Part shown: positions 2,081 through 15,702 of the stretch, in pieces
Numbering within the stretch: the first letter of the stretch is position 1
How the letters are laid out: each line of letters starts with the position of its first letter
Virus record (IMG/VR): IMGVR_UViG_3300015263_000241
Coordinates: 1-35,643 of that record
Source of the DNA: a virus
Length of the DNA: 35,643 nt
Direction: 5' to 3' (one strand)
Made by a program: the position numbers and the translations under genes
Notes under the pieces: model-generated
Databases searched by the model: none
The model's input: the letters and a program-made list of their open reading frames with translations, nothing else
Told to the model about the DNA's origin: nothing

Positions 2081-2110
2081 ATTATACTTCCTTGGAACGT
2101 ATTTCGTCAA
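2081..2110 (-). promoter_or_regulatory. Sigma-A/sigma-70 type promoter
   Basis: On the minus strand TTGACG (2105-2110), an 18-bp spacer and a perfect TATAAT (2081-2086) form a near-consensus housekeeping promoter. It lies at the 3' end of the dNMP-kinase-like gene and points toward the HTH regulator and the genes left of it. The 34-bp palindrome begins right after the -10 box. Confidence 0.75.
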
Positions 2111-2615
2111 GGAGTTTAGTAATCGCTTGTCTAGTTTTTTCACGATCTTCATTCAAAACCACATAATCAGCACTATAGGATGCGGTTTTGTCGTCAAAGA
2201 AACTTTCGGATAGCAAAAGACTCCCATCCGCAGCATTACGCAAGGACTTGCCAATGTGTCGCCTACGCTGCCGCTCGGGAGCCGCAATGCGAATGATAAT
2301 GAACCCATCCTCACGCAATGCCTGTAACTCCGAGATATATCGAACATCTTCAATCACAATGTCCTTTGTGATCCTCGTCATTCGACTAAATAGATATCTC
2401 AGATGAATCGTAGGATCAATCTTGTATAACGCATCATAGATATCCACTCTGCGTTCCCAAGTAGGTCGCTGGTATCGCTTGTATCCATACATGTCTCGCA
2501 TGAATTTCGCAACACCGTCATCCATTCGTACTCGTTTGAAATTGTGGTGTCGTTCTAGGAAGAAGGCAACAAATGTTTTACCTGTCGCCCTCTTCCCTAT
2601 CAAAGCTATCTTCAT
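2082..2615 (-). CDS. P-loop nucleotide kinase-like protein (dNMP kinase family, copy 2)
   Basis: This 177-residue protein begins MKIALIGKRATGKT, giving a Walker A motif at residues 7-14, with IEDVR at 88-92 as the probable second acidic motif. The layout matches small phage deoxynucleoside monophosphate kinases of the T4 gp1 type, which phosphorylate dNMPs to dNDPs. It shares the pattern [I]-[ED]-D-[VL]-R-x5-E-x3-L-x3-G-F-I with the kinase-like gene at 3168-3755, so the two look like paralogues. Its ATG overlaps the stop of the HD gene by ATGA, indicating translational coupling. Substrate specificity cannot be read from the sequence. Confidence 0.7.
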   Translation of the reverse strand: MKIALIGKRATGKTFVAFFLERHHNFKRVRMDDGVAKFMRDMYGYKRYQRPTWERRVDIYDALYKIDPTIHLRYLFSRMTRITKDIVIEDVRYISELQALREDGFIIIRIAAPERQRRRHIGKSLRNAADGSLLLSESFFDDKTASYSADYVVLNEDREKTRQAITKLLDEIRSKEV

Positions 2616-3175
2616 CGATTCCGTAACCCCTTCTCAAGTCTACTGAGATAGGCTACTTCTAGTATTGCTGATCCGGGTGAATACCCCATAATTGTAGCCG
2701 GTAATGGCTCCATGCCATCCATCGACCACTCACCAACCTCAGCATTCTTAAACAGGGCCGCACGTTCGGTAAGTAGAATTCGCGTATCAGCTTCAATGAC
2801 TTCTTGTGGCATTACTGGATCAAGATTGAACCGCACACAAATAGCATTCCAAACCCTGTCTTCCAATTCCTTGTAATTTGTGAGTAATCTTTTAACTGGA
2901 CGAGGAACGTCCACAATGTACGCTTCTGTTGCATCATGCAGCAACCCATAGATTGCATTCTCTTCACTAACACCTTCTGACACAAGAATGCAATGCTCTG
3001 CCACAGAATAGAATTTATCTATATGCCCGCCAAACCTACATAGGCGTGACAGAGCATGGACAATATCTTTTGGATCGATATCTTCTGCAATAGGATGCTC
3101 CGGATAGAATCTCTTTCCGGAATATGTCTGCATCCATTCGCCACGCAGACGTTCAATCTCTTTTGTTTCACTCAT
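2612..3175 (-). CDS. HD-domain phosphohydrolase (YfbR-like 5'-nucleotidase family)
   Basis: This 187-residue protein carries the phage-type HD hydrolase pattern: DIVHALSRLCRFGGH (residues 37-51), YSVAEHC with the first metal His at 61, LLHDATEAYIVDVPRPVK with the HD pair at 80-81, and a distal Asp at 130. Relatives of this family remove phosphate from dNMPs or act on other nucleotides. The ATG at 3173-3175 is preceded by GGGAAGTAAAG; an ATG at 3196 has no ribosome binding site. It overlaps the upstream kinase stop by 8 nt and sits between the two kinase-like paralogues, so a role in adjusting the nucleotide pool is likely. Confidence 0.85.
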   Translation of the reverse strand: MSETKEIERLRGEWMQTYSGKRFYPEHPIAEDIDPKDIVHALSRLCRFGGHIDKFYSVAEHCILVSEGVSEENAIYGLLHDATEAYIVDVPRPVKRLLTNYKELEDRVWNAICVRFNLDPVMPQEVIEADTRILLTERAALFKNAEVGEWSMDGMEPLPATIMGYSPGSAILEVAYLSRLEKGLRNR

Positions 3176-3755
3176 CTTTACTTCCCAAAATTCCATAGTC
3201 TAAATCATCTAGGCTCAATGGAGAATTATTCTTCAGGATATAGTCGGGGACTATGTGCTTGTATTCTTGCTCAGAAGCGTGCAGAAGGGCCTCTGGAGCC
3301 GCGTTAGGGTACAGAGTGGACATTCGCTCCACTCTGATATTTTCGTCTGCATCCACATAAATTAATATGAATCCATTCTTCTTCAACCACTTAGCTTCGT
3401 TTGCTAGACGAAGATCATCAATCACTACACGATATTTGCTAAGGTTGGGAAGATATTTATTCATTTGTATTGTATTAAGGGCATATTTAATCCATACATC
3501 CTCGTCAATAGAACGCATAGCATCACCAAGTTTTTGTAGAATGATGCGGTCTGGACCGTCCTTATACTGCACCCCAAACAATTCATATGCAAGGCTCTTC
3601 AATTTATCTGCAAATGCAACCTTCCTATAATTGTGATTGGCAACCAGATGATTAGCGAGATAGGTCTTGCCACTAACCATCGGCCCATAGAATGCAATGC
3701 GCTGAAATGGTTCGGTAACTTTTGGAAGTTTAGGCATAGGCAACATATTCGTCAT
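3168..3755 (-). CDS. Deoxynucleoside monophosphate kinase-like P-loop protein (copy 1)
   Basis: About 195 residues from the ATG at 3753-3755, which follows GGGAGGATGC. A TTG at 3767 or an ATG at 3746 are alternatives. Walker A is GPMVSGKT (24-31) and IDDLR lies at 112-116, followed by NEAKWLKKNGFILIYVDA, typical of T4 gp1-like dNMP kinases. The family converts dNMPs to dNDPs for phage DNA synthesis. It overlaps the preceding small gene by 26 nt. It is related to the second kinase-like gene downstream; having two may reflect different nucleotide targets. Confidence 0.75.
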   Translation of the reverse strand: MTNMLPMPKLPKVTEPFQRIAFYGPMVSGKTYLANHLVANHNYRKVAFADKLKSLAYELFGVQYKDGPDRIILQKLGDAMRSIDEDVWIKYALNTIQMNKYLPNLSKYRVVIDDLRLANEAKWLKKNGFILIYVDADENIRVERMSTLYPNAAPEALLHASEQEYKHIVPDYILKNNSPLSLDDLDYGILGSKDE

Positions 3756-3972
3756 GCATCCTCCCAATCATTGTGGCATACCATGCACGAACGAGATCAG
3801 CACTATGAAACTGTCCGAATTCCTCTAGTGCTTCAATTAGATTTGGGATATCCCCCAGTGACGTAACAGGCACTCCAACGAAATTCGCTCGCTCATTGAC
3901 AAACTTAAACATTTCAGATCCATTCAATGTGGGGGACTCTTTCTTCGTGTATACTAATCTACCGGTTCCCAC
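3730..3972 (-). CDS. Small hypothetical protein
   Basis: This 80-residue protein from a GTG at 3970-3972, with GAGAG 5 nt upstream, has no motif I recognise. It is mixed alpha/beta with SLGDIPNLIEALEEFGQF in the middle and an aromatic, acidic end. It overlaps the deaminase stop by 19 nt and the kinase start by 26 nt, so it is locked in the same translational chain. A later start (TTG at 3927 or ATG at 3912) is possible but lacks better support. A role beside nucleotide metabolism is only suggested by location. Confidence 0.55.
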   Translation of the reverse strand: MGTGRLVYTKKESPTLNGSEMFKFVNERANFVGVPVTSLGDIPNLIEALEEFGQFHSADLVRAWYATMIGRMHDEYVAYA

Positions 3973-4445
3973 TCTTGCTCTCTTTCAATAATAATCTGAT
4001 TGATTGAATATGGAGCCCATGTATCAGGTGCATCCAGAAGATACACATACTTATAGCCTGCAAACTTTATTGCCATGGCACATGAGTGGCAGGGATAGGT
4101 TTCCCTGCCGTACATCACACGATCATCATGGGCTGACACACCAGCAAGAAGAAAATAATCTCCAATTTGTGTATCAGACCACTTGATAAGGGCGGCTACT
4201 TCTGAATGGATTTCTCCACCAACCTCCACCCGTTCTCCATTTGCAAAATCAAATCTAGTACGGGCACAGGTAGTACGAGTGCAGCATTTTCCAACTCTGC
4301 TGTTTGAAGCAGATACAACTATATCAGCAGAGTCAGCCATACCCCTCTTGATAATAACGGAGCCAAACTTTCTGCGTATGCAGGGACTTTCTTTGGCTAC
4401 ATCTATTGCCAGATCAGTGTACTCAGAGATTAACGATGGTGTCAT
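3954..4445 (-). CDS. dCMP/cytidine deaminase-like zinc enzyme
   Basis: A 163-residue protein with the zinc deaminase signature: HSE (80-82, His ligand plus catalytic Glu) and PCHSC (118-122, two Cys ligands). Upstream lies a second Cys cluster, GKCCTRTTC (52-60), as seen in dCMP deaminases that bind another zinc. The family converts dCMP to dUMP, feeding dTMP synthesis. The ATG at 4443-4445 lies 12 nt after GGGAGG; longer starts run back into the previous gene. It heads the nucleotide cluster with the HD and kinase genes. A modified-nucleotide substrate is possible but not shown. Confidence 0.8.
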   Translation of the reverse strand: MTPSLISEYTDLAIDVAKESPCIRRKFGSVIIKRGMADSADIVVSASNSRVGKCCTRTTCARTRFDFANGERVEVGGEIHSEVAALIKWSDTQIGDYFLLAGVSAHDDRVMYGRETYPCHSCAMAIKFAGYKYVYLLDAPDTWAPYSINQIIIEREQEWEPVD

Positions 4446-4821
4446 TCGCTGGCTCACCCTCCCCAATTTGATACCTATAAAGCATAACAAGTTGATGCTC
4501 TACCTTCACTTGCTGAAGATCGGCCAACGCTTTCAGCAATTCCTCTTCGGTAATTGTGAATGATACACCATGATTCTCACCAATCTGCACACTAAGGTAC
4601 AATCCGGGTGACGTAGATGGAATCTCAGATTCCTCATCCTGATTCTCTAGGACAGCATCGACCACCGGATACCCGACAATCTCTACAATGCGATCATCGC
4701 GCAACTTGTCATAGTCGAAAATCTCTTCCTCCCCAGTAGGATCATAGAAATAATCGGCTCGGAAATTAAAGTATATTCTCCCCGGCATGTGGGTAACGGC
4801 GTTATTGTTGTTCGCTGCCAT
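4423..4821 (-). CDS. Hypothetical acidic protein
   Basis: The ATG at 4819-4821 follows AAAGGA with 8-nt spacing, giving 132 residues that start MAANNNNAVTHMPGR. The protein is strongly acidic (EEEIFDYDKLRDDR and NQDEESEIPSTSPG) and rich in beta-type segments, with a late helix EEELLKALADLQQVK. I recognise no family. It overlaps the deaminase start and begins 15 nt before the nuclease stop, so it sits between a DNA nuclease and a nucleotide enzyme. The acidic character might suit a DNA mimic or a partner protein; this is speculation. Confidence 0.6.
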   Translation of the reverse strand: MAANNNNAVTHMPGRIYFNFRADYFYDPTGEEEIFDYDKLRDDRIVEIVGYPVVDAVLENQDEESEIPSTSPGLYLSVQIGENHGVSFTITEEELLKALADLQQVKVEHQLVMLYRYQIGEGEPANDTIVNL

Positions 4822-5611
4822 TGAGCAATTCCTTTCGCTGTGTGAGCAATTGTGTTTCCAACTCTCTGTCATCACATACAGCACCCTTGAACTCACACCA
4901 ATTGCATACCTGTGAGTGATAAATTCTATATCTGATATCTCTACGGTTCATTTCTAGAGCATTGTGCAGCATGCGCTGCAATTCCTCTATGTCCTTCATG
5001 GTCCTGTGGGTGACCAACTGCTTGCCATTGCGTAAGTGGTGCCAGCGCAATTCCTTGGGCAGTTTGCCGAACAATTCGTATCCGGCCCACGCATAGGTGG
5101 TAAACTGCAAGTCGTGATCTAGGAACCATGCATCCGGCTCTCTTGATCCTGACTTGTAATCAATGACGATGTATTCTCCGTCATCGTCGAAGTCGATCCT
5201 GTCGATCTTTCCAACAACAACAATCTCATCCTCAAAAGGTAACTTGAATTCCTTCTCAGATGCATAGGGGATCGCTGGAATTTTGCCTTGTTCGATACCA
5301 CGAGTAAACAACTCCAACATTTCTAGTCCCTCGGCCTCTTGCTTCTTCATCTTGGGCCAAGTGACATAAACCTCTTCGTCCTCTATAATACGTCGATACT
5401 CTGTAAGGAATTTATTACCAACGAAATCAAGTGACCATTCTGGCTGCTTGTGTCCTTCTTCAAGTGCAAGATGCAAAGAGTTTCCTAGCGCCAATGCATC
5501 TGTTGTCTTTGATCGCATGCCTGCCTCGTATCGCAAAAATGCGGCATACGGGCAAGCGAACATGTGAATGAATGAGTATGATATGTGCTTTATCTGCTTT
5601 ACCTTAGCCAC
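4802..5611 (-). CDS. Cas4/RecB-like PD-(D/E)XK exonuclease with predicted Fe-S cluster
   Basis: This 269-residue protein has the RecB-family nuclease order: GNSLH (43-47), KIDRID (Asp 137), DYK (151-153, catalytic D and K) and a QFTTYAW motif (169-175). One Cys at 20 (FACPYAAF) plus CNWC (236, 239) and Cys 246 match the four-Cys 4Fe-4S staple of Cas4 and AddB nucleases. Such proteins resect or process DNA ends during phage recombination and replication. The GTG start at 5609-5611 is 6 nt after GGAGG. It overlaps the gene upstream by 8 nt. No cas1, cas2 or CRISPR array is near, so this is a stand-alone phage nuclease. Confidence 0.88.
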   Translation of the reverse strand: MAKVKQIKHISYSFIHMFACPYAAFLRYEAGMRSKTTDALALGNSLHLALEEGHKQPEWSLDFVGNKFLTEYRRIIEDEEVYVTWPKMKKQEAEGLEMLELFTRGIEQGKIPAIPYASEKEFKLPFEDEIVVVGKIDRIDFDDDGEYIVIDYKSGSREPDAWFLDHDLQFTTYAWAGYELFGKLPKELRWHHLRNGKQLVTHRTMKDIEELQRMLHNALEMNRRDIRYRIYHSQVCNWCEFKGAVCDDRELETQLLTQRKELLNGSEQQ

Positions 5612-6989: not shown

Positions 6990-7715
6990 CTAATCTTCCT
7001 CAGAATTTTCACACAAACTTTCATAAAATGAAAGTAGGGGAAGATACTCCCTGCGCTTGCTTATCTCTTCCAGTAACTCACTTAAAATTCGACTATTGGA
7101 AATCAATTCCTCATGTCTTGTTTGTGTGATAATAGCCATAGTGTCGAGTTTTCTTTTCCCGCCCTGGATAACAAAGTCTCTCGGCATATTAGGAGGATCA
7201 ACATGAAGCAGTGCATTCTTCTGAAAATCAATCGCACGCTGATTGATGAGTATCCAAGCGTCAATCAACCACGTTGGCATTTTTCGATTCTTATTCTCTG
7301 TAACGTAACTGCGTGATATTGCATCCACCCGCATACCAGTTATAAACCCGATACGTCCTGTATTAGACGCGATGTTTCTGAAGGCTGGGTCTGCACCATC
7401 TGCTGCAACCATTCTTTTGGCAATATCTCGCTCGGAGTCCTTTGCCCTTCTTCTAAGGCGTCGAGCCTCCGCTGTACCGCCTCCAGCTGGTTTTGGTACT
7501 CCAATTGCTGTCTCGCTACCTGTTCCATTACGGCTAGCATTTCTAGCACTAGTTGATTTAATTCTTTGACTATTGGAAGTAGTTGGTCTGATGGTGACCT
7601 CTTCCAGCGTCCCAGTAAATTTACAACCACGGTAACATGCTCCGTTCCATTTGATATACTTCATTTTGCAATTTGAACATACCCATTCCCTCTTTGATCT
7701 AATCATTCGTCCCAT
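6990..7715 (-). CDS. Zinc-ribbon plus PD-(D/E)XK-type nuclease
   Basis: This 241-residue protein opens with a zinc ribbon (C13, C16, C27, C31). A low-complexity basic linker follows (about 40-92, Ser/Thr/Arg/Gly-rich). The C-terminal half has a nuclease-like pattern: E95 in SERDIAKR, D131 in GMRVDAIS and E140-N-K142 in VTENKNRK, consistent with PD-(D/E)XK (Holliday junction resolvase or restriction-like) folds. It would cut DNA, perhaps branched intermediates; this is inference from the motif alone. The ATG (7713-7715) overlaps the upstream stop as TAATG. The linker region is also open in another frame (see 7340-7630). Confidence 0.65.
   Translation of the reverse strand: MGRMIRSKREWVCSNCKMKYIKWNGACYRGCKFTGTLEEVTIRPTTSNSQRIKSTSARNASRNGTGSETAIGVPKPAGGGTAEARRLRRRAKDSERDIAKRMVAADGADPAFRNIASNTGRIGFITGMRVDAISRSYVTENKNRKMPTWLIDAWILINQRAIDFQKNALLHVDPPNMPRDFVIQGGKRKLDTMAIITQTRHEELISNSRILSELLEEISKRREYLPLLSFYESLCENSEED
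7340..7630 (-). CDS. Candidate nested (overprinted) coiled-coil protein
   Basis: Entirely inside the nuclease gene and in a different frame lies a 96-codon ORF with a GTG start (7628-7630) and a GGAG box 9 nt upstream (7640-7643). Its product is not the usual noise of a shadow frame: from about residue 20 to 62 it reads as regular heptads (VKELNQLVLEML, MEQVARQQLEYQ, NQLEAVQRRLDALEEG). It ends just before the nuclease's catalytic Asp and matches the part of the nuclease that is low-complexity. It could also be chance in a Gly/Arg/Ala-rich region. A coiled-coil partner of the nuclease is a speculation. Confidence 0.4.
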   Translation of the reverse strand: MVVNLLGRWKRSPSDQLLPIVKELNQLVLEMLAVMEQVARQQLEYQNQLEAVQRRLDALEEGQRTPSEILPKEWLQQMVQTQPSETSRLIQDVSGL

Positions 7716-7903
7716 TAATCAGCCCACGCTACCTTCTCAAATCGTCGCTTGAACAATCTGCCCTCGCGTGTCTGGAAATAAGTATCAATATTGAAGCCTG
7801 AACGTACAGAAAACTCAGGATTCTTACAAAGAAATTCAGCATATTCTAAGTATAGTATCCACCAGAATGTTTTAAACTTAGTATAATTATAGAAGTCGTC
7901 CAT
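7715..7903 (-). CDS. Small aromatic-rich hypothetical protein
   Basis: This 62-residue protein starts at an ATG (7901-7903) 10 nt after GGAG. It is rich in Phe, Tyr and Trp (MDDFYNYTKFKTFWWILYLE) and has a basic end (RLFKRRFEK). It overlaps the C5-methyltransferase stop by 17 nt and the nuclease start by 1 nt. No family is recognised; it might be a small adaptor for one of these DNA enzymes. Confidence 0.6.
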   Translation of the reverse strand: MDDFYNYTKFKTFWWILYLEYAEFLCKNPEFSVRSGFNIDTYFQTREGRLFKRRFEKVAWAD

Positions 7904-8651
7904 GCATTATAATCTCCTTCCCTATATATTCAGTATAGGCTGGAGGGATAGCCTCAGATAACTCAAAGTCATGTTCGGCCCAATCAATTCCCATTAATAT
8001 TTTCCACACGTCAAGGCTTCCAGTCTGTCTGCCCTTGCCGACAACAGAATAAATTTTTCTGTTCCGAGTTTTAGGATTAACTGCAATCCATTCCTCAGCT
8101 ACTGGATGCGTAACGCCCCGACACTTCTTGTGTGCAGGTTGTGGAATGTCAAAAGTACTCTCAAATAATCTATGTCTACGAGTGCCTAGACCAAACATTG
8201 TGCCGCATAGAAATAGGGGATCAATCAATTCATCCCGTGCCCCGAACACATTCTCTATAACATACGGCATATTCAGTGCGCGAAGTTTCTCACGTAGTGG
8301 AGCAATAAGTTGAGGTTCATTGAACCCCGAATGCTTCCCCTTCGACCATTTACCATCACTTGATACATGCTTGGAATAACTTTGGCAAGGAGGACTTGCG
8401 GTAACGATCTTTATATTGAAATAATTCAATAGATTAATATCTTCAAGAACTTCCAAGGCATCATATTCAATAAACCAAAACGGATAATTAGGTTGTGGTT
8501 TATGGTCAACACCGATTATATTAAACCCAGCCCGATGATATCCAACTCCTGATCCACCCACACCACAGAACAAGTCCAGCATTGTAGGTTTATTTGGATC
8601 AAGTACTAAGCCTTCAGCGGCGTCGAACGTTGGGATTCTTAAATTTAACAT
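7887..8651 (-). CDS. C5-cytosine DNA methyltransferase
   Basis: About 254 residues, beginning at the ATG at 8649-8651 (7 nt after GGGAG; a GTG 6 nt upstream is too close to the box). Motif I is LDLFCGVGG (about residues 25-33), motif IV is ASPPCQS with the catalytic Cys at about 89, motif VI is ENV and motif VIII is RRHR. It transfers a methyl group from S-adenosylmethionine to C5 of cytosine. It is shorter than typical bacterial enzymes (about 330 or more), so the target-recognition region is compact. No restriction endonuclease gene is adjacent, so self-protection against host restriction is the likely role. Confidence 0.9.
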   Translation of the reverse strand: MLNLRIPTFDAAEGLVLDPNKPTMLDLFCGVGGSGVGYHRAGFNIIGVDHKPQPNYPFWFIEYDALEVLEDINLLNYFNIKIVTASPPCQSYSKHVSSDGKWSKGKHSGFNEPQLIAPLREKLRALNMPYVIENVFGARDELIDPLFLCGTMFGLGTRRHRLFESTFDIPQPAHKKCRGVTHPVAEEWIAVNPKTRNRKIYSVVGKGRQTGSLDVWKILMGIDWAEHDFELSEAIPPAYTEYIGKEIIMHGRLL

Positions 8652-9933
8652 ATGCACTCTCCCAGTCTAGTAGTACAATTCCTTGGCGACCATTACGATT
8701 CTTCTTGATGATAATCTCTGCCACATCAGTGTCTGTTGTAGGAGTACCATAATAAGAATCTCTGTAGAGGAATATAACCACATCTGCTGATTGTTCAATA
8801 TCTCCAGAACCACGAAGGTCAGTTAATTCCGGTCGCCTATTCTTAACCTTTCCTTCAGTACGTTGCTCATTATTTCTACTCAACTGGGAAAGCAGAATAA
8901 TAGGACAATCTAATTCCTTTCCTAGTGCACGCAATTCATTGACAGTATCACCAATCTGATCGGTCTTGTTACCAGATGACGTATGGCGCATGATTTGCAG
9001 ATAGTCAACCACAATCAGTCCCAAATCTCCCCATTCATACCGCTTCTGTCGGGACACCGAAGAGATATAACTTGCAGGAACCTGTGCCTTGTCATCGATA
9101 TGGATATTGTCAGTCACATGCTCTAGCCTGTAATTTGCATCCTGTATACTCTCCATCGATTTCTTGTCAGCGAGAAATGCACCACTGCGAATATCTTCTA
9201 GATCAACTTCCGCTTCTGCGGCTAAGAGCCGTTCAAACACCTGTTCTTTGCTCTGCTCTAGAGAAAAGAACAAGACAGGACGAGTCGCTGCAATATTTCG
9301 TGCTATATTGATAGCAAATGCAGTCTTACCCATGCTCGGACGAGCAGCAAGGACAATCAATCCCTCCATTCGTTGTAGCATCAGGTCTACTTCAATGAAT
9401 CCGGATTTGACTCCCTCAACCTTGGTTGCTCGCGTATTCAATCCCTCGATAAATTTCTTGAATGACTCCGTAGTGGATTCAAGTTTGTTATCTAAAACAC
9501 GAGCCTGTAGAAACTGTGCAAACATCTGCTCCAATTGCTGAATAGCCTCATCAGGATCAGATGTTGGGGCATAGCAGACAGCTGTGATCTCTCTGCCTAG
9601 GTCAATACCCGCACGAAGTTTGGATTTTCCCTTGATAGTCTCCGCATAGAACATGATGTTGGATAGGCTTGGAAGAATCTTTTCTGAGTCCTGTACCAAC
9701 TCACGAAAGTATGTCAATGCCCCTTCATTGGAGCGCAATTTATCCTCAATCGTCAGGCTATCAAGATTGTCTGGTGCTGTAGAGGAAATTGCTTTGAAGA
9801 TTTCTTTGTGGTTTTCTTTGTAGAAATCCGCTGGCTCAATAAATTCAGTTATGCGTGGCAATAGCATTGGGTCTTGAAGAACACCAACAATTACTGCACG
9901 CTCAAAATCATCATTATACGGAATTAAATTCAT
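8614..9933 (-). CDS. dnaB: Replicative DNA helicase, DnaB family
   Basis: 439 residues from the ATG at 9931-9933; further upstream codons fall in the preceding gene's frame overlap. The N-terminal helical domain (to about 110) begins NLIPYNDDFERAVIVGVL. The RecA-like domain has Walker A ARPSMGKT (197-204), Walker B VVDYLQ (308-313), SQLSRNNEQR and DLRGSGDIEQSADVV, all diagnostic of DnaB. It forms a hexamer that unwinds the phage replication fork. It overlaps the adenine methyltransferase stop and the C5-methyltransferase start, so replication and modification genes are translated as one block. No separate loader or primase is visible in this window. Confidence 0.96.
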   Translation of the reverse strand: MNLIPYNDDFERAVIVGVLQDPMLLPRITEFIEPADFYKENHKEIFKAISSTAPDNLDSLTIEDKLRSNEGALTYFRELVQDSEKILPSLSNIMFYAETIKGKSKLRAGIDLGREITAVCYAPTSDPDEAIQQLEQMFAQFLQARVLDNKLESTTESFKKFIEGLNTRATKVEGVKSGFIEVDLMLQRMEGLIVLAARPSMGKTAFAINIARNIAATRPVLFFSLEQSKEQVFERLLAAEAEVDLEDIRSGAFLADKKSMESIQDANYRLEHVTDNIHIDDKAQVPASYISSVSRQKRYEWGDLGLIVVDYLQIMRHTSSGNKTDQIGDTVNELRALGKELDCPIILLSQLSRNNEQRTEGKVKNRRPELTDLRGSGDIEQSADVVIFLYRDSYYGTPTTDTDVAEIIIKKNRNGRQGIVLLDWESAYVKFKNPNVRRR

Positions 9934-10642
9934 ATTCCTCAATTCTTTTCCTTGCAGTATCAAAATGCTGCAAATCATTATCAATAAGGATAAAGTCTCG
10001 ACCTGAATTCAAACAAGCAATACCTGTAGTTCCGCTCCCGCATGCATTATCGAGAACAGTTTCTCCCTCATTGGTATACGTTCTGATTAAATATTCAAAC
10101 AATGACACAGGCTTCTGTGTGGGGTGCAGCCCAGTCTCCCGATTGAATTTAATCACTGACTTGGGATACTTCATACCATTATTGTTCTTGTAGTAAACAA
10201 CAGCTCCCTTGCCATGTTCATCAGAACCTTTTCGTATGCCCTTACCCACGGAATGATTAAGATTACCTTTCCACATTACTGGATTGTATGTTGGAGGACG
10301 CTTATAGAATACAAGCACGTTCTCATGGTATCGTAATGGTTGACTCTTTGCTGCACCAAAATTACTTGGCTTGTCCTTTTCCCATATCCACTCATATTTG
10401 AATAGGGATGGATTGCTCATCACAAGCGCACTTGTAAATGGTTGTGCGGCGGTCAGCACTATAGCCCCGTTAGGCTTGATGATACGCTCATACTGCTCCC
10501 ATAATGGAGCAAAAGGTATAGGAATATCCCAACTGATTCCTGTTATTCCGTAAGGTAAGTCGCATAAAATCATGTCAATAGATGCATCTTCAATGGTATT
10601 TTTCATTACCTTGATACAATCCCCAAGAATAAGCCTACTCAC
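9914..10642 (-). CDS. DNA N6-adenine/N4-cytosine methyltransferase (beta-class order)
   Basis: This 242-residue protein has motif IV as DLPYG (28-32), HPTQKP (173-178) and the SAM-binding LDNACGSGTTG (197-207). The catalytic motif therefore precedes the SAM motif, as in beta-class amino-methyltransferases. Leu replaces the usual second residue of DPPY, a variation seen in other phage enzymes. Target sequence and base (adenine or cytosine) cannot be told. The GTG start (10640-10642) is 7 nt after GGAG and overlaps the Mom-like gene by 8 nt, so the two modifying enzymes are probably made together. Confidence 0.9.
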   Translation of the reverse strand: MSRLILGDCIKVMKNTIEDASIDMILCDLPYGITGISWDIPIPFAPLWEQYERIIKPNGAIVLTAAQPFTSALVMSNPSLFKYEWIWEKDKPSNFGAAKSQPLRYHENVLVFYKRPPTYNPVMWKGNLNHSVGKGIRKGSDEHGKGAVVYYKNNNGMKYPKSVIKFNRETGLHPTQKPVSLFEYLIRTYTNEGETVLDNACGSGTTGIACLNSGRDFILIDNDLQHFDTARKRIEEYEFNSV

Positions 10643-11276
10643 CCAAACTCTCCTTCTTTGGATAGGGAAGTGATGGCATAATAACTAGTCTCCGGACCCG
10701 TCTACGTTCTGTCTTTGCTGTAGGAAGGAGGAATAGGTATCGATACTTGCCCTCTCTTCTAACACGACTCCATCCTCTTTTTCGGGCATCGTCGGCGGAG
10801 ATATTGATTCCGTTTTGTCGGGGATGCCTAAGACGATCTCCATCAAGATAGAACCATGCTCGTTGAGTACGTCCTGTATATATTGCATTAGTAGCCTGAT
10901 AGATTGTTCCGACGTGTCCCTCAGTTGCATCCGCAAAAGAGAGGACGGCCCAAAGGTCGGGCCTCTGCTTGTATAAGTCTCGTAAAACTTTCGATATAAA
11001 ATAAGATTCGGTATTTTTCCCGTATCCATCCAACACTACCAATCTATGTAACTCAGTCACATGCTGTTTGTATTCAACACCAAAAACGCTAGCCCTGACA
11101 TTCTCACTACATGGAGTGGCAATGGCTAACGCACCAACGAGAGTTTCCCCATCAAACAACCCCCAACATAAGGGACCGTTGTGGCATCCGTGGGAATAAT
11201 GATGTTTACGTATAAATTCAATTCCGGTTTTAGCAGGTATGCGTGATACGGTGAGGGAGTGGATAGCACTATCCAT
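10635..11276 (-). CDS. mom: Mom-like DNA adenine hypermodification protein
   Basis: This 213-residue protein has the Mom-family pattern: HHYSHGCHNGP near residue 25-35, a GNAT-like core GALAIATPCSENV, ELHRLVVLDGYGKNTES, and FADATEGHVGTIYQATN before YTGRT. In phage Mu, Mom converts adenine to an N6-acetamido/carbamoyl-type base and blocks many restriction enzymes; the same chemistry here is inferred. It is basic at the C-terminus (KTERRRVRRLV). The ATG (11274-11276) overlaps the upstream stop by 8 nt. No Com-like zinc translational activator is seen next to it, unlike Mu. Confidence 0.82.
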   Translation of the reverse strand: MDSAIHSLTVSRIPAKTGIEFIRKHHYSHGCHNGPLCWGLFDGETLVGALAIATPCSENVRASVFGVEYKQHVTELHRLVVLDGYGKNTESYFISKVLRDLYKQRPDLWAVLSFADATEGHVGTIYQATNAIYTGRTQRAWFYLDGDRLRHPRQNGINISADDARKRGWSRVRREGKYRYLFLLPTAKTERRRVRRLVIMPSLPYPKKESLGE

Positions 11277-11643
11277 CCTGCACCTTCTTCAATTTAGCAG
11301 CCAACTCTTCATTTCTCTTGTGGCTGGCATCTTTGATTCTCTCGATCTCAGCAAGGTATTCATCCTCTTCATCTGCATCTGTCTGCATTTCCTTCCACTT
11401 GGCAGAACATACCTTCAACACATAATTGAGAGGGTCACCATTGAGGGTGGCGGAAGACGAGGCGACTATTGCTTCAAACATGGGCCACTCACCATACAAT
11501 TTGAGTGCCTTGTAGAATCTAGGAGCAGATGAAACGGAAGAACCCATCATGGCTGAATAAAATCTCAACCAATGAGTCCTTCCGTTTCTCTTCAATTCAA
11601 CCCGCCACTCAGAAAGAGATTTAGCATCCTCTTCTGAGAACAT
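11269..11643 (-). CDS. Hypothetical protein between SSB and Mom
   Basis: This 124-residue protein starts at an ATG (11641-11643) with GGGG 6 nt upstream. The first part is mixed and the middle contains GDPLNYVLKVCSAKWKEM, which resembles the end of DnaD-like replication domains but too weakly to name it. The C-terminal 40 residues form a charged helix (DEEDEYLAEIERIKD, then KRNEELAAKLKKVQ). Its position beside the SSB gene suggests a replication accessory such as a loader; not proven. Confidence 0.6.
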   Translation of the reverse strand: MFSEEDAKSLSEWRVELKRNGRTHWLRFYSAMMGSSVSSAPRFYKALKLYGEWPMFEAIVASSSATLNGDPLNYVLKVCSAKWKEMQTDADEEDEYLAEIERIKDASHKRNEELAAKLKKVQDG

Positions 11644-11653
11644 GGGCTACCCC

Positions 11654-12421
11654 TTACGCGACACCACGAATAGCATTCAACTCATCAATGGTAGCGCCTG
11701 AAAGCATTGCCTCAATCTCTTCAACAGAGGACGGTTCCGCCAACAGAGACAAATCAAACTTGCGTTGAGGATCACCCGTTTCGGGATCAATCAACCATTC
11801 ATCTGGAGTGGGAACAACATTTCCATCAGCATCAAGCGTAGGCTGCTGTGGAACCGGAGCAATCTTTCGATCACGACCTGTACCAGTTGTGGTGAACACG
11901 ATATCGTAATCGACAATATCTGCGGATGGGAAGTCTTCCTTCTGCATTGTCTCGACAGCGTTCAAACCATTCTGGAACAACTGCGGACCCTGCTCTAGAA
12001 TCTTCACCTTATTGAGTGGTGCGTATTCAAGATTTGCGGGCAACTTGGCTCCGCAAGCCTGACACGCCTTTCCCTTGGGCGTCTGAGCAGAACAAGAAGG
12101 GCACGCACCAAACGGGGTGCGGTCTAGAACATTGATAATGAATCTCTTCTTCGCCTTGCGCTGTAATACCTCGGGATCATCCTTCTCACGACCCACAAGG
12201 CTCTTTTCAATTGGACAAACCTTCATACCCGGTTGAGTATTAGGGCAGTTTGCCATCATTCCCCGGCCATTGTTAGCCTCGGGAACCCAATGCTTCCATA
12301 CGAGCAATGGGTGGTCTTCCAGCATACGAAGAACAGTGCGATGTTCTGGCGTAAACTTTACGTATGAATCACTTGTTCGCTTGCGTGTAGTGGAATAATC
12401 ATGTACTTCTACGAACGGCAT
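11654..12421 (-). CDS. gp32-like single-stranded DNA-binding protein with zinc ribbon
   Basis: This 255-residue protein has RFIINVLDRTP (93-103) followed by a CPSC...CQAC zinc site (C107, C110, C120, C123), the layout of T4 gp32-type phage SSBs. Another Cys pair (59 and 69) lies in NCPNTQPGMKVCPI. The C-terminal third is acidic (SSVEEIEAMLSG), as expected for the tail that contacts replication partners. It coats ssDNA at replication forks and during recombination. The ATG (12419-12421) follows AGGAG by 10 nt. It is the first gene of the replication block, downstream of the 12484-12513 promoter candidate. Confidence 0.8.
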   Translation of the reverse strand: MPFVEVHDYSTTRKRTSDSYVKFTPEHRTVLRMLEDHPLLVWKHWVPEANNGRGMMANCPNTQPGMKVCPIEKSLVGREKDDPEVLQRKAKKRFIINVLDRTPFGACPSCSAQTPKGKACQACGAKLPANLEYAPLNKVKILEQGPQLFQNGLNAVETMQKEDFPSADIVDYDIVFTTTGTGRDRKIAPVPQQPTLDADGNVVPTPDEWLIDPETGDPQRKFDLSLLAEPSSVEEIEAMLSGATIDELNAIRGVA

Positions 12422-14502: not shown

Positions 14503-15702
14503 TTATGCAGCCTCTTTCCTGACCGGCAGAATGTGGAGGCTTTCCTTGATGATGCTATCAAATCCATCCGCTATCGTATCCCAATCAAATTTTGGCTGAT
14601 TAATATATCGATATCCATCTTCTGCGAGTTTGATCCTAAGTTCTCTGCTGTTGTACAATAGATTTAGTTTGGTCACAAGGTCATCCACGCTTGGAACCCC
14701 ACCCCATGTATTGATACCACTTGTGTTTAGAATCCACGCGGACGTATCTACAGTCAAACCTCCATGACCTTCCACCAATTCCTTAAGGCAGGAATGATTG
14801 CTTGTCAACTGCGGGCACCCGGTAGCCATGCTTTCTGCTACAGGCAATCCAAATCCATCGCCCAAAGACACAAGAACATTTACATCAAATGAATTATAGA
14901 TATAGTTTAGGAATTCATCGGGCACGCCACTAGCTGGGGTCAGTCCTTCTGTAAGAATAAGTTTATCCCCTAAATCATACTGGTGTATAAGATCCGGAAT
15001 ATCATACCCGATATCCTCTAATGCAGTATGCAAATAGAGTTTTGCATCAGGCTTATCCTTGGCAAATTCAGCAAAGGCTGCTACAAGGATATCAAATCTC
15101 TTACGATACTGATTGCGAGCCACCATGCCCACGACAAATGCATCCAAGGGAATGTTCAAGCGATTTCTAGCCATCTGCTGGTTCACAGGAAAGAAAGTCT
15201 TCTTATCCACACCATGATACAGTTGGTACAAATTGCTTGGGCGTTTTCCTCCATTAGCCTCAATGACTATCCGCTCACCGAAGTCTGAGTAACAGACTTG
15301 TGCGTCTAATTCTCCTAGAGTTTTTGCCCAACCCGGCTTTAATGGGCCAGAATCTATTGGAAAGTATCCTATCGTTTTTAAATATGGGCTTTCAACTGAC
15401 TTGTATTCTATATACTTATCAATAATCCAGGGATCATTCAAGAAGAATAGTACATCTGGTTGAAATTTATTGGCTATATCCCACAACTTTCGATAGCCAA
15501 ACACTTGCTCCGGATGCGACCCTTTATCACATGGATAAATAGGATATGGGAATTCCCTCTGATCATAGGGTTCTCCATAATGGTTGACGCCTAAGACTGA
15601 TATCTGGTATCCCTTCTTGACAAATCTATTCAATAGGTTCTTGGCAACGATGCCAAAACCTGTGTTGACTGTGGGTGAATCCCCCGAAAACAATAGTTTC
15701 AA
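14503..15702 (-). CDS. Glycosyltransferase, GT4/GT-B family
   Basis: This 399-residue protein starts SGDSPTVNTGFGIVAKNLL, the nucleotide-sugar binding loop of GT-B enzymes, and has GMVARNQYRKRFDIL (residues 192-206) and DGFGLPVAESMATGCP (282-297). The usual E-x7-E is D282-x7-E290 here, a conservative change. It moves a sugar from a nucleotide-sugar donor to an unknown acceptor. Lying between the tail and lysis genes, it may glycosylate a virion protein or modified DNA, or alter the host surface. The start is TTG (15700-15702), 7 nt after AAGGAG. It is full length for its family. Confidence 0.88.
   Translation of the reverse strand: MKLLFSGDSPTVNTGFGIVAKNLLNRFVKKGYQISVLGVNHYGEPYDQREFPYPIYPCDKGSHPEQVFGYRKLWDIANKFQPDVLFFLNDPWIIDKYIEYKSVESPYLKTIGYFPIDSGPLKPGWAKTLGELDAQVCYSDFGERIVIEANGGKRPSNLYQLYHGVDKKTFFPVNQQMARNRLNIPLDAFVVGMVARNQYRKRFDILVAAFAEFAKDKPDAKLYLHTALEDIGYDIPDLIHQYDLGDKLILTEGLTPASGVPDEFLNYIYNSFDVNVLVSLGDGFGLPVAESMATGCPQLTSNHSCLKELVEGHGGLTVDTSAWILNTSGINTWGGVPSVDDLVTKLNLLYNSRELRIKLAEDGYRYINQPKFDWDTIADGFDSIIKESLHILPVRKEAA

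Follow-up and report, generated by a model that had tools for sequence, protein, structure and literature searches.

DNA modification of the Mom type has mostly been discussed for phage Mu, and its occurrence in phages has already been reviewed (PMC7824862). In jumbo phages, Mom is found fused to a nuclease, and Mom-type adenine modification has been described there as a self-mark of the phage (PMC7824862). We analyzed the IMG/VR virus record IMGVR_UViG_3300015263_000241 over its whole length of 35,643 bp (hereafter the window), which may itself be a fragment. A gene of the Mom family, a gene for an N6-adenine or N4-cytosine methyltransferase (hereafter the N-methyltransferase), the dnaB gene and a gene for a C5-cytosine methyltransferase were found to form a single overlapping chain on its minus strand. 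All three modification enzyme families are already known. We consider it likely that these genes make up a DNA-modification island directed against restriction, set inside an early replication operon. The comparison with other phages revealed that methyltransferases often accompany Mom, and do so at a similar position in the replication module. The genes of the locus and its immediate surroundings are as follows.

10635..11276, minus strand: Mom-family, putatively adenine-modifying enzyme, 213 amino acids (aa) (PF25680, PHROG 1384, sequence and fold match to 8bv8)
9914..10642, minus strand: beta-class DNA methyltransferase, N6-adenine (probably) or N4-cytosine, 242 aa (PF01555, PHROG 67, folds)
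8614..9984, minus strand: DnaB-type replicative helicase (DnaB_C, PHROG 19)
7887..8657, minus strand: short C5-cytosine DNA methyltransferase, 256 aa (PF00145, PHROG 363)
7715..7903, minus strand: open reading frame (ORF) of 62 aa overlapping the end of the C5 gene (ORF list; no match in the family search)
11269..11643, minus strand: ORF of 124 aa directly upstream of mom (translation; no convincing family match)
11654..12421, minus strand: single-strand DNA-binding (SSB)-like protein upstream of the island (PHROG 1192, 2.5e-4, a weak match)

The mom gene overlaps both the ORF upstream of it and the N-methyltransferase gene by 8 bp; the dnaB frame overlaps the end of the N-methyltransferase gene, and the C5 methyltransferase gene overlaps the end of dnaB. 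Each of the four genes of the chain is preceded by a Shine-Dalgarno-like sequence. The helicase was matched by DnaB_C (3.2e-75) and PHROG 19 (1.4e-90), and its start is probably the ATG at 9933 rather than the TTG at 9984. An initial annotation, made from the sequence alone, had described a Mom-like, an N6-A/N4-C and a C5 enzyme flanking dnaB in an overlapping chain, and the ORFs, strand, overlaps and family matches all agree with it.

The Mom protein was recognized by PF25680 (2.8e-35; 122.3 bits against a curated cut-off of 27.1) and by PHROG 1384, "Mom-like DNA modification protein" (2.4e-51), and it matched the solved Mom of phage Mu, 8bv8, by sequence (9.6e-13). In the fold search, its structure model (predicted local distance difference test score, pLDDT, 88.5) aligned with 8bv8 over 195 residues with a Z score of 19.8 and a root-mean-square deviation of 3.3, while the next chain reached 12.6, so that 8bv8 stands apart from the remaining acyltransferase-like chains. 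The initial annotation had named the loss of Mom catalytic residues as a result that would speak against it; an alignment of 29 Mom proteins revealed that the near-invariant residues H26, Y27, R78, S91, D116, G123, Y126, N130, R179 and Y180 are all retained. Among these, S91 aligns with S124 of Mu Mom, and the title of 8bv8 describes an "inactive mutant" of Mu Mom in which S124 was changed to alanine; the catalytic residues are deduced from this title and from conservation. A scan of bacterial genomes for Mom gave a top match of 53%, on a contig of a Bacillota metagenome-assembled genome that has no matching neighbours. In the 124-aa ORF upstream of mom, translation and profile searches found no CxxC motif, no Com-type zinc finger and no match to Com.

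The N-methyltransferase was matched by PF01555 (1.2e-23) and PHROG 67 (1.5e-71). Its motifs stand in the order of the beta class, with DLPYG (28-32) as motif IV, HPTQKP (173-178) in the target region and DNACGSGTT (198-206) as motif I, and they are conserved in an alignment of 29 relatives. Motif IV begins with D and the best fold matches, with Z scores of 24.5-24.1, are enzymes acting on N6-adenine, but N4-cytosine enzymes score close behind (22.6); the predicted target is, in our judgement, probably N6-adenine. The C5 methyltransferase was matched by PF00145 (2.5e-7; 30.9 bits against a cut-off of 22) and PHROG 363 (1.2e-28). It is short, with a reduced region between motifs VIII and X, yet it possesses motifs I, IV (PPCQ), VI (ENV), VIII and X as well as RRHR, and these are largely common to eight relatives in an alignment. 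It has relatives in actinophages (identity up to 46%). Searches of IMG/VR with peptide patterns found no close relatives of the C5 enzyme or of DnaB; despite this, relatives of the C5 enzyme with 40-43% identity did turn up in a clade of freshwater phages.

To place the combination among other phages, we compared 22 viral records carrying a close Mom relative (G001-G022); as a raw count, 12 of them also contain one or more methyltransferases of the N6/N4, C5 or Dam type, as genes or as gene fragments. The halovirus HGTV-1 possesses both Mom and a C5 enzyme. In the freshwater phage clade, the gap between the SSB and primase-helicase genes could be resolved in 59 loci, 48 of which hold a recognized modification gene: C5 enzymes occur in 32 loci, beta-class enzymes in 18 and Mom in 12, and since the contigs are partly redundant these figures count loci and not independent events. 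In several records a methyltransferase gene directly adjoins mom: L008, L017 and L026 have the order C5 methyltransferase, Mom, primase-helicase, and L011 and L013 the order Mom, DPPY beta methyltransferase, primase-helicase. L002 carries three tandem Mom genes. Locus L230 combines two Mom-family genes, whose identity to the window Mom is only about 30%, with a beta methyltransferase and a short C5 enzyme that is a homologue of the window enzyme (43% identity, 2.7e-46). The gap in this clade acts as a slot whose modification genes can be exchanged, and the window trio, one of many combinations, exemplifies a recurrent arrangement and is not unique. The layered modification of adenine and cytosine proposed in the initial annotation is the natural reading of three apparently intact enzymes, but it is not special to this phage, because the same combination recurs in other, unrelated phages. 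The initial annotation further suggested that Mom and the N-methyltransferase, if the latter targets adenine, may compete for the same adenines or divide them.

Tandem Mom-family genes of differing subfamilies, two or three to a slot, were observed in L002 (4525-6671), L009 (729-2082) and L230 (3143-4376), and those of L002 and L230 score above the Pfam cut-off for Mom. These paralogues suggest that Mom enzymes of differing specificity exist. Small slot ORFs with zinc-finger-like cysteines (e.g. DYKCPKC), which recall Com, were also noted in the freshwater phages L216, L213 and L203. In the literature, which could not be searched fully, we came across no account of either the exchangeable slot or the tandem Mom genes.

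The composition of the phage DNA was also considered. AGCT is the most avoided tetramer in the window, with 37 coding sites against 150.5 expected (z -11.6) under synonymous-codon shuffling, an expectation that controls for amino acids and codon usage. Nearly all of the remaining sites fall in the xxA-GCT codon phase, and the avoidance showed no evident dependence on flanking bases. Relatives lack entire palindromes, such as CATG or CCGG, and the loss of whole palindromes in haloviruses has been ascribed to host defences (PMC7230728). In addition, L062, L159 and L160 (HGTV-1) have no AGCT, GATC or CTAG in 50.7 kb sampled, where 151, 221 and 77 were expected. Avoidance of this strength points to restriction pressure on these phages. 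AGCT was below 0.6 of expectation in 12 of 17 close-Mom records, compared with 11% of 46 control lineages. However, within one phage clade its ratio was 0.59 in the 8 loci with a close Mom, a group that includes L230, and 0.63 in the 47 loci without any Mom. A tie between AGCT avoidance and Mom was rejected, as AGCT is equally low with and without Mom within the clade, and the association is read as a property of the clade or host. Deamination at the target sites of the C5 enzyme that the phage itself encodes was likewise rejected as the cause of AGCT loss, as AGTT and AACT are not enriched.

In the model that we favour, that of an anti-restriction island, Mom would attach a bulky group, presumably of the carbamoylmethyl type, to some adenines at N6. 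The beta-class enzyme would methylate different sites, probably at adenine, while the C5 enzyme would act on a cytosine motif. The island genes would be co-transcribed with those for the SSB-like protein and DnaB, and because of this presumed co-transcription, new phage DNA would receive its marks during replication, with the three enzymes acting at sites that differ from one another. Such islands would gain and lose modification genes. Several points weigh against this model. The activity of the enzymes, their targets and any shielding of the DNA from restriction are predictions; the frequency of methyltransferases beside mom is a raw count and only a putative enrichment; and avoidance of AGCT and GGCC persists in the window, so that modification, if active, leaves some sites unprotected. 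Because AGCT is so strongly avoided, modification apparently has not lifted all restriction pressure, and the pattern suggests an anti-restriction role of the island with incomplete protection.

Other explanations were weighed against this model. The methyltransferases might be mainly regulatory, setting the timing of replication or packaging or marking the phage's own DNA against a phage nuclease, with Mom alone acting against restriction. The modification genes do surround the helicase within the replication module, and a gene for a RecB-like exonuclease lies close by (4802-5611); however, the methyltransferases of the equivalent slot in related phages are exchangeable and at times missing, which suits a fixed role in replication poorly, and we regard this scenario as improbable. 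It is quite improbable that the genes are accidental neighbours. Orphan methyltransferases are common in phages, the beta-class family having relatives in 913 phage records and the C5 family in 297, and some could have landed near mom, but Mom and methyltransferases recur jointly at the same type of site, between SSB and primase-helicase, and L230 repeats the same trio.

The island could also belong to a restriction-modification system, as its modification component, with the nuclease lying unrecognized nearby. The ORF at 6990-7715 (241 aa) begins with a zinc ribbon and shows by eye a nuclease-like D...ExK pattern, but it gave only a weak match to the RadA zinc ribbon and none to a nuclease family. 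The window ORFs scanned against profile libraries included no match to restriction-enzyme families, with several ORFs lacking any assignment. The absence of a restriction enzyme claimed in the initial annotation is thus likely rather than proven, and a hidden nuclease partner seems highly improbable. A bolder extension of the island model holds that the slot is a dedicated exchangeable island whose multiple Mom paralogues and methyltransferases, differing in specificity and numbering up to four genes per slot, act jointly on the same DNA, with some adenines shared by Mom and a methyltransferase. We put this forward only tentatively and think it rather unlikely; if true, the marks on the phage DNA would be combinatorial and would overcome ordinary restriction as well as restriction that depends on modification. 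Sets of Mom and methyltransferase genes as found in these phages are ready-made for asking whether DNA marks cooperate, divide sites or interfere.

Elsewhere in the window, genes of nucleotide metabolism lie at 2082-4490, where two deoxynucleoside monophosphate kinase-like genes stand on either side of a deoxynucleoside monophosphate phosphatase gene, together with a gene for a deoxycytidine monophosphate deaminase. This cluster might feed salvage of host DNA or further base modification. A group 1 glycosyltransferase is encoded at 14503-15702 (PF00534, 2.2e-13; PHROG 2170, 9.1e-45).

Compared with the named systems, the window Mom shares family and fold with that of phage Mu (PF25680; PDB 8bv8) and is 27-28% identical to it over 195 residues, with all near-invariant residues, including the equivalent of S124, common to both. 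The surroundings of the two genes differ. In the genome record of Mu, mom is placed near the end and is overlapped by com, and the phage has no methyltransferase match, whereas the window gene lies in the replication module, has no Com-like partner and overlaps a methyltransferase gene. Unlike the nuclease-fused Mom of jumbo phages (PMC7824862), the window Mom is free-standing and accompanied by methyltransferases. The isolated Geobacillus phage vB_GthS_PK3.6 carries genes for DnaB, a Mom relative (32% identical to the window Mom and annotated as hypothetical), SSB and Dam near one another, plus two beta methyltransferases; a match to the C5 methyltransferase was found in the window but not in this phage. 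In the freshwater clade (L008, L011, L013, L017, L026, L002 and L230), Mom and/or methyltransferases lie between SSB and the primase-helicase. The helicase there is a PrimPol fusion and all modification genes precede it, whereas in the window the helicase is DnaB and modification genes stand on both sides of it; L230 of this clade nevertheless carries the same three enzyme types as the window.
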